In this document: positions 6,394-10,318 of the stretch, piece by piece
Layout of the letters: the number at the start of each line of letters is the position of its first letter
How positions within the stretch are numbered: the first letter of the stretch is position 1
Assembly: GCA_030037575.1 (NCBI GenBank)
Contig: JASHRB010000357.1
Span: 1-10,580, forward strand
Length of the DNA: 10,580 nucleotides
Origin: Candidatus Sulfotelmatobacter sp.
GTDB taxonomy: Bacteria; Acidobacteriota; Terriglobia; Terriglobales; Acidobacteriaceae
Direction of reading: 5' to 3'
Translations under genes and position numbers: made by a program
Notes under the pieces: model-generated
Database searches by the model: none
The model's input: the letters and a program-made list of their open reading frames with translations, nothing else
Told to the model about the DNA's origin: nothing

Positions 6394-6400
6394 GAGGAGA
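6394..6400 (+). promoter_or_regulatory. Ribosome binding site deciding the peroxiredoxin start
   Basis: GAGGAGA lies five bases before the ATG at 6406. It singles out this start from a much longer open frame that reaches back to about 5905 through the antisense of the acyl-CoA synthetase gene. Confidence 0.8.
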
Positions 6401-6405
6401 ACTTC

Positions 6406-6990
6406 ATGCAAGTGAGACGTTCCGCTCTTTTGCGGGCGGTGTTATTGGCGGGAACGCTGGCAACCGCTCCGGCCAATCCTGCTCTCGCGAAAAGTCAGCC
6501 GCCGCCGGAGGCCCCCGCCAGGTCGATGCCCAAGGTTGGCGCCGTGGCTCCCGATTTCACTTTGCAGTATTTCGACGGCAATGATCTGAAAGATGTTTCC
6601 CTGAGCCAGTATCGCGGAAAGAAAAATGTCGTCGTGGCGTTCTTTATTTTTGCTTTCACCGGAGGTTGAACCAAGCAGATGCAGGCGCTCCAGCAGGATT
6701 TGAAGCGGCTGGACGCGACCGATACCCAGGTTCTGGGTGTGAGCATGGATAGCGCCTTCGCCAACAAAGCGTTTGCCGACCAGATTGGAGTTAGCTTTCC
6801 GCTGCTCAGCGATTGGGGCGGGGACGTAACCCACAAATACGGAATTTACGTTGACAAGTACAAGGCCGCACGCCGCGTGAACTTCCTCATCGGAAAGGAT
6901 GGAAAAATTCTCGAGGAGCAGGTTGATAAAGACGCACTCGATCCCACGAAGATTGTGGATACGTGTGAGCGGCCCAAATTGAAGAACTGA
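6406..6990 (+). CDS. Exported selenocysteine-containing peroxiredoxin (AhpC/TSA type)
   Basis: This is a thioredoxin-fold peroxidase that reduces hydrogen peroxide or organic peroxides. Residues 1-29 form a signal peptide (MQVRRS, hydrophobic core, ALA/KS), so the enzyme should act outside the cytoplasm. [14 protein letters not shown] (45-58) begins the AhpC/TSA domain. FAFTGG (82-87) is followed by an in-frame TGA at 6667-6669 (codon 88), then [11 protein letters not shown]. The family motif here is TxxC, so the UGA stands exactly at the peroxidatic cysteine and is best read as selenocysteine. The frame then continues without damage through [19 protein letters not shown] and [13 protein letters not shown], which hold the usual core strands and the conserved arginine, to 194 residues. 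A SECIS-like hairpin follows the UGA. The single cysteine, Cys187 near the C terminus, could be the resolving residue. The proline usually seven residues before the active site is isoleucine (Ile81). It is divergent from the acyl-CoA synthetase gene and convergent with the histidine kinase (4 bases apart). An automatic caller would split it at 6669. Confidence 0.88.
6682..6711 (+). promoter_or_regulatory. Bacterial SECIS element candidate
   Basis: It starts 13 bases after the UGA codon. Lower stem: CAG 6682-6684 with CTG 6709-6711. After a G/G mismatch, CGCT 6686-6689 pairs with AGCG 6704-6707. After a C/A mismatch, CAG 6691-6693 pairs with TTG 6700-6702 (the last pair is G-T wobble). The loop CAGGAT (6694-6699) begins 25 bases after the UGA and carries two guanines. 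Distance, upper stem and G in the apical loop fit the bacterial SECIS form recognised by SelB. The structure was paired by eye, not computed. Confidence 0.65.
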
Positions 6991-6994
6991 GCTT

Positions 6995-8440
6995 TCAAGC
7001 GGCGGGCAGCTCGAAGGAAAAAACCGAGCCTCGCCCCGGCTGGCTGGTAACTGCGATTGTGCCGGTGTGCGCCTCAACAATCGCCTTGGCGATGGCTAAC
7101 CCCATGCCAGTACCTTGCACGCTGTAGCGCTGGTCGCGCCCGCGGTAGAACTTGTCGAAAACCAGTGACTGCTCGAAGTCGTCAATGCCGTGGCCGCGAT
7201 CGGTGACACTGGTAATCACGCGATCTCCTTTGCTTTCGGCCGTGATCGTGATGGGTGACGTCGATGCCGAATATTTCGCGGCATTCTCCAGCAACTGCTT
7301 GAGCACCTCGGCAACGCGATCGGAATCGACGCGTACTTTCGGTAATGACGGAGGCACGCGGAGTTCCAGCGGATGCTGGCCAAGCACTGTTCTTGATTCC
7401 TCAACCGCCGATTCGATTATGGTCGCAATGTCAACCGGCACCATGTGCAGCTCAACTTTGTGAGCGTCGAGCTGCGCCATTTCCGTGGCTTCGCCCACCA
7501 GCCGGTCGAGACGATCGGTTTCCTCGTTGATCACGGTGAGCAATTCTTTTCTTTGCGCATCGTCTAGTTTGTAATCCGAGAGCAGCCCTGTGACCGCAGC
7601 CTTGATACCCGTGAGCGGCGTGCGCAGCTCATGCGTGACGGAATCAAGAAGAACCGAGCGAAGGGTTTCGCTCTGGCGCGTGGCCTCGGTTTGCGAAAGC
7701 TTTTCCATGGCGCCTGCTCGTTCGATCGCGATGCCAATCATGCTGCCCAGCGCTTCCAGCGTTGCGCGGGAGAGCGCCGGGCCGGCAATGCCTACCGCGC
7801 CGGTGGTGCGGGTTCCGAGATGCAGCGGAGACAGCGAAACGCCGCGGTCATGATCGATGACCGGCTCGCCGCGCGCACTGACCATTTGCAGATCATGCAC
7901 CGGAAACCAGGTCGCCGTCGGATCGGTTCGATAAACCTGTTGCGAGCTGAGCAGGTAGATCGCGGCGGCTTTCGCTGCGAAGCCATCGCGCACATAAGCG
8001 GGAATTGCATTCAACAATTCGGCCATGTTGTCGGTGGCCAGCAGGCGCTGGCTGAAAGCATAAAGGCGCTCCACGTCGCGGCGCCGCTGATTGGCGTCAG
8101 CCGCTTGCCTGCGCGCGCGGTCGGCAAGCTGGCTGGCGATGCCGGCGGTCACGAGGAATGCAAACAACGCGACCCAGTTCTGCGGATCAGCCACCGTGAA
8201 CGTGCCAATGGGGGGAAGAAAATAATAGTTGAAGGCCAGCGTGGCCAGCAACGCGAGAAAAACAGAAAAGCGAAAACCCCAATAGGCGGCCACCCACAAG
8301 ACCATGAGCAAGAAGGTCAGAGCCACGGTCGTCGGATTCACACGGACGGCATGCCGATAGAGCTGCACGACCAATTCCGTCGCAACCATGCACACGCCAT
8401 AACAGAACAAATGCTGTGGCCAGCGGGGCTTCACGCGCAC
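6995..8440 (-). CDS. KdpD-type sensor histidine kinase, C-terminal half (DUF4118-GAF-HisKA-HATPase)
   Basis: This protein of about 481 residues corresponds to the membrane and kinase half of KdpD. Four hydrophobic segments (about 8-28, 38-56, 57-76, 88-105; [17 protein letters not shown] is in the middle) form the DUF4118 region. A basic stretch [16 protein letters not shown] leads into a GAF-like domain (about 120-245). The kinase core has the H-box SVTHELRTP with phospho-acceptor His270, the N-box [10 protein letters not shown] (Asn385), DRGHGI (414-419), and the G2 loop GTGMGL (443-448). The Walker A/KdpD domain and the Usp domain are absent and lie in the divergent neighbour. The frame is open to an ATG at 8566, but that would overlap the neighbour's start by 65 bases. 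GTG codons at 8440 or 8434, just before the first membrane segment, are more likely starts. No ribosome site is clear. The probable partner is KdpE, encoded two genes away. Confidence 0.88.
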
Positions 8441-8501
8441 GATTGTAACCGGAACCGGCCGGGATTCGACAATTCCCGCTGCGGCGTGGAAAATAGCGGC
8501 G
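8441..8501. promoter_or_regulatory. Shared intergenic control region of the two kdpD half-genes
   Basis: These 61 bases separate the divergent starts. On the minus strand TACAAT (8442-8447) lies seven bases before the GTG at 8434, resembling the arrangement in front of thiG. On the plus strand I see only weak -35/-10 matches (TTCGAC at 8466-8471 and AAAATA at 8490-8495). If the kinase start is at 8566, this region would be coding and the promoter would have to lie elsewhere. Confidence 0.35.
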
Positions 8502-9617
8502 ATGGCCAAGAGTCCCGAAGAGTGGCTGGCGGAAGTAGAGACGGCGAAACGATCGGCCGTGTTCAAGCTGTTTTTGGGCTACGCTCCGGGCGTGGGAAAG
8601 ACTTACGCCATGCTGAGCGAAGGAGTACGCCGCGCAAGCCGCGGCGAAGAAGTCGTCATCGGCGTCGTAGAAACTCATGGACGAAAACCGATCGTCGAAC
8701 TTTCCTCGCGCCTCGAGACCGTTCCGCGCAAAAAACTGGAATATAAGTCGACCATCTTTGAAGAAATGGATGTCGACGCGATTCTCGCCCGCAAGCCGCA
8801 TGTCGTTTTGGTCGACGAGCTCGCGCACACAAATATCGAGGGCAGCAAGCACGCGAAACGCTACGAAGACGTCTTCGAGTTGCTCGATGCCGGGATCGAC
8901 GTTCTTTCCACGTTGAATGTCCAGCACGTCGAGAGTTTGTCGCCCACGATTCGCACTCTCACCGGAGTCCAAGTGCGTGAAACCGTGCCCGATTGGGTGA
9001 TTCGCCGCGCTGGTGAAATTGTCATGGCCGATCTCACTCCCCAGGCCTTGCAGACCCGCATGAGGCGCGGAGATATTTATCCGCTCGAGCGAGTGGAGCG
9101 CGCGCTAGCAAATTTCTTTCGGAATACCAACCTGGTGGCACTGCGCGAACTGGCTTTGCGACAGGTTACGCAGGCAGTCGACCGAACGCTTTCCGAGTTG
9201 AAAACAGAAGATGGTGAGCCTTTGCAGGTGCGCGAACGGATCGCGGTCTGCATCAGTTCAAATCCGGCCGCGCAATATCTGATCGCGCGCGGCGCTCGCA
9301 TGGCCCAGGCGATCGACGCCGATCTGTTTGTGCTCTACGTCGATACCGGCGCCGATGAAAGCGATGAAAATCAGCGGAGTCTGGCTGACAATGTTCGCTT
9401 TGCCGAGAGCGTGGGTGCAAAGGTCGTGAAAACGGAGGGGAAAATTGTCGCCGAAAGAGTCGCCGAGTTCGTCCGCGAGAATCACATCACGCAGGTAGTT
9501 TTCGGGCGGTCGGCAACGAAAGGATGGAAGCGATATTTCTATCTTTCCACCATTCACAAGTTTCTCCGCGACACTCCCGCCGTGGATGTTCACATCGTGA
9601 CCCAGGAAATGCGGTGA
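8502..9617 (+). CDS. kdpD: KdpD N-terminal sensor domain plus universal-stress domain protein, without kinase
   Basis: This 371-residue cytoplasmic protein equals the N-terminal half of KdpD, the turgor/potassium sensor of the kdp system. FLGYAPGVGKT (24-34) is the Walker A motif and VVLVDELAHTN (101-111) the Walker B motif of the KdpD domain. HVESLSPTI and RETVPDWV follow, as in full-length KdpD. Residues about 245-367 (RIAVCISSNP, MAQAIDADLFVLYV, GRSATKGWKR, VDVHIVTQ) form a Usp-like domain; in some KdpD proteins this domain binds c-di-AMP. The protein stops there: there is no membrane region and no histidine kinase, which are encoded divergently at 6995-8440. The ATG at 8502 gives the family-typical beginning (MAKSPEEWLAEVE). 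KdpE starts five bases after the stop, so the two form an operon. Confidence 0.92.
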   Translation: MAKSPEEWLAEVETAKRSAVFKLFLGYAPGVGKTYAMLSEGVRRASRGEEVVIGVVETHGRKPIVELSSRLETVPRKKLEYKSTIFEEMDVDAILARKPHVVLVDELAHTNIEGSKHAKRYEDVFELLDAGIDVLSTLNVQHVESLSPTIRTLTGVQVRETVPDWVIRRAGEIVMADLTPQALQTRMRRGDIYPLERVERALANFFRNTNLVALRELALRQVTQAVDRTLSELKTEDGEPLQVRERIAVCISSNPAAQYLIARGARMAQAIDADLFVLYVDTGADESDENQRSLADNVRFAESVGAKVVKTEGKIVAERVAEFVRENHITQVVFGRSATKGWKRYFYLSTIHKFLRDTPAVDVHIVTQEMR

Positions 9618-9622
9618 GCCTG

Positions 9623-10318
9623 ATGACGAACGAGCACCGTCGAATTCTGGTGGTAGACGATGAGCTGCAGATCACGCGCGTTCTGCGCACTACGCTGTCG
9701 GCACAGGGTTACGATGTTCGCGTGGCCAACGACGGTGAAATGGCGCTGGAGTTGATGAAGAACTGGACTCCGCACGTCGTCATCACCGATCTTGCCATGC
9801 CGAATCTTGATGGCGTCGAGCTGTGCAAACGGGTGCGGCAGCTTTCGCAAGTGCCGATCATCGTGCTTTCGGTTCGCGGGTTCGACCGATCCAAGGTCGA
9901 AGCTCTCGATGCCGGCGCGGACGACTACGTTACCAAGCCATTCAGCATGAACGAATTGCTGGCGCGCATCCGCGCGCAGTTGCGGCGGAACCCCGCGCCT
10001 GAAGAGCCGCCGAGCGCGATCACGGCGGGCGATTTCTCCATCGACCTGGAGGCTCGCTCGGTGAGTGTTGCTGGACGGGATGTTCACCTCACCCCGAAGG
10101 AATTCGATTTGCTCATTTATTTGGCGCGTCGTCCGGGAAAGGTGGTGACGCACCGCACGCTGCTCGCCGCCGTCTGGGGCGCGAACAGCACCGAACAGCC
10201 GGAATACTTGCGCGTTTTTGTCGGTCAACTGCGCAAGAAGATCGAGCCTGATCCTTCGTCGCCAAAATATCTGCTCACCGAACCCTGGGTTGGTTACCGA
10301 TTCGAACCAGGCTTTTGA
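9623..10318 (+). CDS. kdpE: KdpE-type response regulator (OmpR/PhoB family)
   Basis: This is a 231-residue two-domain DNA-binding regulator of usual KdpE length. Its receiver domain (about 6-120) shows the acidic pair Asp12-Asp13, phospho-acceptor Asp56 in VVITDLAMP, Ser83 in place of the usual Thr/Ser switch residue, and Lys105 in VTKPF. The winged-helix effector domain (about 135-229) shows HLTPKEFDLLIYLARRPGKV, VWGANSTEQPEYLRVFVGQL, and the final WVGYRF, which is typical of KdpE. In the family it activates kdpFABC for high-affinity K+ uptake. Those genes are not in this window. The frame is open back to 9524, but that region overlaps the preceding gene; the ATG at 9623 with GGTGAG at 9613-9618 is the sensible start. 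Translation is probably coupled to the KdpD N-terminal gene. No clear terminator follows. Confidence 0.94.
   Translation: MTNEHRRILVVDDELQITRVLRTTLSAQGYDVRVANDGEMALELMKNWTPHVVITDLAMPNLDGVELCKRVRQLSQVPIIVLSVRGFDRSKVEALDAGADDYVTKPFSMNELLARIRAQLRRNPAPEEPPSAITAGDFSIDLEARSVSVAGRDVHLTPKEFDLLIYLARRPGKVVTHRTLLAAVWGANSTEQPEYLRVFVGQLRKKIEPDPSSPKYLLTEPWVGYRFEPGF

Follow-up and report, generated by a model that had tools for sequence, protein, structure and literature searches.

The window, by which we mean the whole 10,580-nucleotide stretch of a Candidatus Sulfotelmatobacter sp. contig analysed here, contains two open stretches in the same frame that are parted by a UGA codon. Is this UGA translated as selenocysteine (Sec), and if so, which RNA element signals it? 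The explanation as a whole that we consider very likely is that the gene encodes an exported peroxiredoxin of Acidobacteriota with Sec as its peroxidatic residue, signalled by a downstream hairpin here termed hairpin II.

An in-frame UGA at the peroxidatic site

Direct reading gives a start ATG at 6406, a stop TGA at 6988-6990 and a single in-frame TGA, which is codon 88. This agrees with an earlier note on the same DNA, which had described one AhpC/TSA protein spanning both stretches (6406-6990) with a UGA at the peroxidatic site as the sole interruption, and which had also pointed to the ribosome site. The features of the gene are as follows.

6406..6990, plus strand: putative Sec-peroxiredoxin gene of 194 residues with UGA as Sec (direct reading, Pfam, database relatives and locus comparison)
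6395..6399, plus strand: AGGAG six bases 5' of the ATG, a likely ribosome binding site (sequence)
6406..6489, plus strand: residues 1-28, probable signal peptide (judged by eye, with cleavage following ALA; a low-confidence stretch of the predicted model)
6667..6669, plus strand: UGA codon 88, predicted selenocysteine at the peroxidatic position (TGA in 59/59 loci with the column)
6964..6966, plus strand: codon of Cys187, likely the resolving Cys (C-terminal Cys in 58/59 loci; the window protein has no other Cys)

The peroxidatic site of the window protein reads FTGG-U-TKQM, within the fuller motif FAFTGGU, and the Pfam AhpC-TSA score is 111.3 bits against a gathering cut-off of 26. The gene also terminates at UGA, both in the window (6988-6990) and in 24/59 loci, so one gene may use UGA as Sec and as stop.

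A first set of 60 loci was collected by homology, with the window's own copy included (L013): 30 were obtained from a scan of species genomes, and the other 30 are the best of 72 genomes that gave a match at 1e-20 among the 297 genomes of the phylum searched. Column 88 is TGA in all 59 loci that contain the column (L072 starts past it and lies outside this count), and the frame is otherwise open through the C-terminal Cys in 58 of these, L071 stopping early. The contig of L071 is labelled Alphaproteobacteria but may be misbinned, as the tree places this locus within the clade of Acidobacteriota. A second fetch, consisting of the 29 remaining rows listed with TGA and 11 of the 20 rows listed without a stop, had TGA at column 88 in 28 cases and TGC or TGT in 12. 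Homologues with U or Cys at residue 88 are what the earlier note had named as support; the first set has TGA alone at this column, the second TGA or a Cys codon. Named relatives are nearly all acidobacterial (Acidobacteriaceae, Candidatus Sulfotelmatobacter, Terriglobia), and the 120 listed database relatives include many pieces of 107-109 amino acids starting just past the UGA, as had been anticipated for automatic annotation. In the predicted database proteins P0003, P0005 and P0008 a Trp occupies the UGA column, like calls made with a UGA-as-Trp code.

A single stop codon is a common type of lesion, and a pseudogene or a sequencing error could produce one. Against this, the TGA stands at one column in every one of the 59 loci, drawn from many assemblies and otherwise open in 58, which refutes the idea and leaves it a negligible probability. 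The same counts uphold the earlier judgement that a random nonsense mutation is improbable, and they run opposite to the pattern proposed as its refutation, namely relatives with other disruptions or without Cys or Sec at this column.

The window's genome, which is 82% complete and in 751 contigs, holds a tRNA-Sec with anticodon TCA (67.5 bits, cut-off 47), selB (365.5 bits, cut-off 242.25) and selD (378.4 bits, with one in-frame TGA near the N-terminus). Of the four machinery genes that the earlier note would have sought, selA is thus the one represented by sub-cut-off pieces only: a C-terminal match of 68 bits (cut-off 267.9) and an N-terminal match of 51 residues, cut off where a different contig begins, as would be expected from a split assembly. 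Absence of selB and selC, which had been put forward as evidence against Sec, does not apply, as both genes are present. Across the phylum, 53 of the 54 genomes that have TGA at this codon also carry selB, compared with 194/297 searched overall, and 50/54 have a tRNA-Sec match better than 1e-10, compared with 177/297; these counts are not independent events since the genomes are related. Among the 54, selB was not found in G266, and a clear tRNA-Sec was not found in G266, G234, G005 and G185. The 1e-10 line was our own choice (G147 is counted at 4.1e-11 though it has no selB match), and G026, with TGC at the column, was left out of the 54. Of 31 genomes searched in the window's own family, eight have selB and six have the TGA gene, all six within the eight. 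One genome, G203, carries two selD genes (L121 and L146) without an in-frame stop, though its peroxiredoxin has UGA; each of the other 25 genomes compared with it has one TGA in selD.

Transfer RNAs that read UGA are known besides tRNA-Sec, and such a tRNA might insert Cys or another residue at codon 88. The tRNA search with ARAGORN covered four loci. We regard this reading as very improbable, given that the genome has an above-cut-off tRNA-Sec, selB, and a selD that itself contains an in-frame TGA. From these comparisons we infer that UGA 88 is almost certainly decoded as Sec.

Two hairpins downstream of the UGA

Two RNA elements follow the UGA within the coding sequence.

6687..6715, plus strand: hairpin I, proposed spacer (or the SECIS itself), +18 to +46 after the UGA (folding, conservation and shuffles)
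6722..6740, plus strand: hairpin II, proposed SECIS (SelB ligand), +53 to +71, with a GUU loop closed by a G-C pair

Neither region was matched by Rfam, which at gathering thresholds gave no hit within the window. The loci were sorted into five groups: A, the window's clade, with 38 members; B with 34; C with 7; D with 8; and 12 Cys homologues. The consensus of hairpin II in group A is about ACACCCAG-GUN-CUGGGUGU, and columns 55-62, 65-68, 71 and 73-75 are invariant across the 38 rows. All eight pairs are present in 33/38 rows and seven of the eight in the other five; the six core pairs occur in 34/38 group A rows and in none of groups B (0/34), C (0/7) and Cys (0/12). The codons that form hairpin II are near-fixed in the 38 rows (ACC 38, CAG 38, GGT 37, GTG 37, AGC 38) and vary at the same places in the 21 group B rows examined, which suggests that they are held beyond amino-acid need. 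Base conservation in group A is much stronger in hairpin II than in hairpin I, and because the element hardly varies there, its covariation within the group rests on few rows.

The group B hairpin lies at +15 to +36 and has a GGC or GUC loop. In 21 rows, four of its nine pairs are changed on both sides, a count reached by 22/500 shuffles, and its covariation score is reached by 0/500. Hairpin I of group A has an invariant core; its covariation score is likewise reached by 0/500 shuffles, its changed-pair count is reached by 192/500, and one slid control equalled one of the measures (14 vs 13 cells). RNAalifold returned five pairs for it in group A, none with both sides changed.

Synonymous shuffles gave mean z values for hairpin I (or the near region) and hairpin II of -1.81 and -1.84 in group A, -1.68 and +0.21 in B, -1.02 and +0.27 in C, and 0.01 and -0.34 in the Cys homologues. 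Averaged over rows, groups A and D show a signal at both hairpins, group B and, weakly, group C at the near one only, and the Cys homologues at neither. Among single group A rows, 61% (hairpin I) and 47% (hairpin II) reached 0.05, and the window alone has z values of -2.37 and -1.77, respectively. Compared with dinucleotide shuffles, the 59 nt of the window that hold hairpin I have a z of -1.70, with 12/200 shuffles folding as well.

Position, spread and alternative readings of the signal

The published bacterial SECIS model, as given in the portion of a 2026 review used here (PMC13188914), has a loop of 3-9 nt with G in the first two positions, 16-37 nt from the UGA, on a stem of 4-16 bp with an energy at or below -7.5. 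Hairpin II agrees with this consensus in its 3-nt loop of G then U and its stem length, and its energy is at or below -7.5 in 38/38 rows, the window included. It differs in that the loop is 60 nt from the UGA and another hairpin lies between. A scan with the published rule at 16-37 nt identified elements in 0/38 loci of group A, 12/34 of B, 5/7 of C, 1/8 of D and 0/12 of Cys; at 55-62 nt the corresponding counts were 36/38, 0/34, 1/7, 7/8 and 1/12. The scan allows no bulges and under-counts canonical elements (the 12/34 in group B), so 0/38 at 16-37 nt is no proof of absence.

We propose that SelB with tRNA-Sec(UCA) would read UGA 88 by binding hairpin II, an element of bacterial-SECIS type with 8 bp and a 3-nt loop starting GU, placed 60 nt from the UGA. 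Hairpin I would fold 29 intervening bases out of the path, leaving an effective distance of some 31 nt (17 bases before hairpin I, 6 after it and 8 of the rising strand), within the published 16-37. As judged from sequence comparison, hairpin II is probably the SelB ligand, and the assignment of hairpin I as a spacer is favoured to a lesser degree.

Hairpin II also occurs outside the window's clade. Group D loci carry it together with a hairpin upstream of it; as the group was picked for hairpin II, its 7/8 in the rule scan is not an independent count. By eye, five of these loci look cytosolic (L097, L099, L103-L105) and three exported (L082, L095, L096). For covariation, 15 of the 38 group A rows were aligned with 7 of the 8 group D rows, L095 being left out since its hairpin is one codon off. 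Two pairs are changed on both sides, which 169/500 shuffles reach, and the covariation score and the paired-cell share are reached by 0/500, in a test that is partly circular because group D was chosen for hairpin II.

On a tree of 99 proteins, which carried a long-branch warning, group A forms one clade (100/99) within a group B grade, a placement compatible with the signal having moved once at that point; for group D, several changes have to be assumed. The Cys gene L116 groups with the Sec gene L103 of the same family (support 94/69), has no hairpin II, and has EVVA where QVLG stands. If the Cys of L116 is derived, the RNA had been constraining the protein sequence. A further group of Sec-peroxiredoxins (L098, L101, L102, L106-L109) combines a near hairpin with a Cys four residues past U (UTAEC or UTLQC), and five of its seven members agree with the SECIS rule at 16-37 nt.

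SelB might instead bind hairpin I, whose loop is often as large as 13 nt, as the SECIS, with hairpin II an auxiliary element that, for example, slows the ribosome. Hairpin I does sit at the usual bacterial place and has a conserved core stem under synonymous constraint, and its stem, UCCAGC/GCUGGA, resembles by eye that of selD in the window's family, where the loop is GGC (GGU in one); this likeness keeps the reading alive. Among the 25 selD loci given, of which 20 yielded the UGA site, the apical core of hairpin II, CAG-GUN-CUG, recurs in 6/9 selD genes of genomes that do not belong to group A, where roughly 33 nt separate the UGA from the loop, and this speaks for hairpin II. A SelB-bound hairpin I is nevertheless hard to reconcile with a loop that exceeds 3-9 nt in many rows and lacks G in the first two positions in rows such as L066 and L070, with the 0/38 of the bulge-free scan at 16-37 nt, and with the much stronger base conservation of hairpin II, and we consider it unlikely. 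Hairpin I as the SECIS was our first reading, drawn in part from 51-nt windows that blur the two hairpins, and was given up on codon conservation and on pair probabilities that showed hairpin II.

It is also conceivable that hairpin II is no RNA signal and that its pairing follows from the protein motif DTQVLGVS, from codon preference or from a DNA-binding palindrome. The motif alone favours pairing, as the 12 Cys homologues pair 2-7 of the 8 positions, one of them has the CAG-GTN-CTG core and two fold significantly there; the element is also a DNA dyad, and its both-side changes are readily reached by shuffles. These points are outweighed by the restriction of the six core pairs to 34/38 group A rows and none of groups B, C and Cys, by the covariation score and paired-cell share (with the circularity noted above), and by the lack of hairpin II in L116 next to L103 on the tree, which together make this reading improbable. 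Hairpin II as SelB ligand stays our preferred assignment.

These loci may define a SECIS class in which the SelB hairpin lies about 60 nt past the UGA and a conserved hairpin shortens the path. Such a class, present in several Acidobacteriota Sec-peroxiredoxin subfamilies, would escape the 16-37 nt rule, and its hairpin would have shifted position within a single gene family whose protein retained its active site and fold; on balance we lean towards this view. The 2026 review notes that some bacterial SECIS elements are off consensus, and the distant two-hairpin layout is absent from its SECIS section (PMC13188914). Within the accessible portions of the open-licence literature searched (including PMC1794560, PMC1088965, PMC5029168, PMC10778597, PMC2398784, PMC12013277, PMC8659212 and PMC13188914), no distant two-hairpin bacterial SECIS was described. 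The displaced element with its spacer hairpin would be a previously undescribed variant of the bacterial SECIS layout.

The predicted protein and its setting

The predicted model has a mean pLDDT of 87, and ten-residue blocks from 41 to 190 score 92-98. Residue 88 sits close to the beginning of helix 86-97. Cys187, the sole Cys of the protein and kept as a C-terminal Cys in 58/59 loci, lies within the C-terminal helix 181-192. Cys187 is probably the resolving Cys. N-termini of the 59 loci, at starts picked by script, are mostly signal-peptide-like by eye and often end in AQ or AxA, and the peroxiredoxin is probably exported. After export, Sec88 would reduce peroxide, the resulting selenenic acid would form a selenenylsulfide with Cys187, and an extracytoplasmic reductant would reset it.

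With PrxU (NF040737) the window protein shares the AhpC/TSA family, the TxxU peroxidatic site and Sec machinery in the genome, but it scores 79.6 bits, below the PrxU cut-off of 270, and differs in its likely signal peptide (by eye), in the C-terminal Cys of 58/59 loci and at position -7 from Sec. There the Pro of the PxxxTxxU signature, highly conserved according to the part of the review consulted (PMC13188914), is Val or Ile in 55/59 loci, the window included, and Pro in 4/59. The TxxC-type motif with UGA at the Cys site described in the earlier note stands, and the Pro usual seven residues before Sec is replaced in the window protein. Its family and fold scores nonetheless place it among the AhpC/TSA peroxiredoxins. 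The 1-Cys peroxiredoxin AhpE (1xxu, 1xvw, 4x0x, 4x1u) is among the nearest folds, with TM 0.78-0.89 by target length and 33-36% identity; the archaeal Bcp1 structure 3drn is equally near (TM 0.86-0.89 by target length), and other peroxiredoxins top the fold ranking by E-value. AhpE is also among the best sequence matches, behind 2ywn. It has Cys where the window protein has Sec, and the sequence match stops at residue 169, leaving the Cys187 region outside.

As far as the excerpted sources extend, TxxU-type Sec-peroxiredoxins are well known, a 2006 survey credits Acidobacteria with four selenoproteins in three families, and the open-licence texts searched gave no description of an exported Sec-peroxiredoxin. 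The protein is probably a further, and probably exported, member of the known Sec-peroxiredoxins.

A comparison of neighbours from 57 sources revealed one divergent gene family, present at 25 loci and resembling an acyl-CoA synthetase. Positions 6995-10318 of the window look like a KdpD-type sensor broken up into a pair of divergent genes that overlap: the minus-strand gene (6995-8566) would be the histidine kinase half and the plus-strand gene (8502-9617) the KdpD-like N-terminal half. A presumed response regulator comes next.

Should SelB indeed bind hairpin II, the distance rule by which bacterial selenoprotein genes are searched for is too narrow, and genes of this kind are being lost as fragments. 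The family would then offer a natural experiment, in which related clades of one apparently exported peroxiredoxin have the signal loop at about +24 or at +61, and silent mutations could serve to test how SelB, when bound to a hairpin so far downstream, gets to the decoding site. If our explanation is true, soil Acidobacteriota would have a selenocysteine peroxidase outside the cytoplasm.
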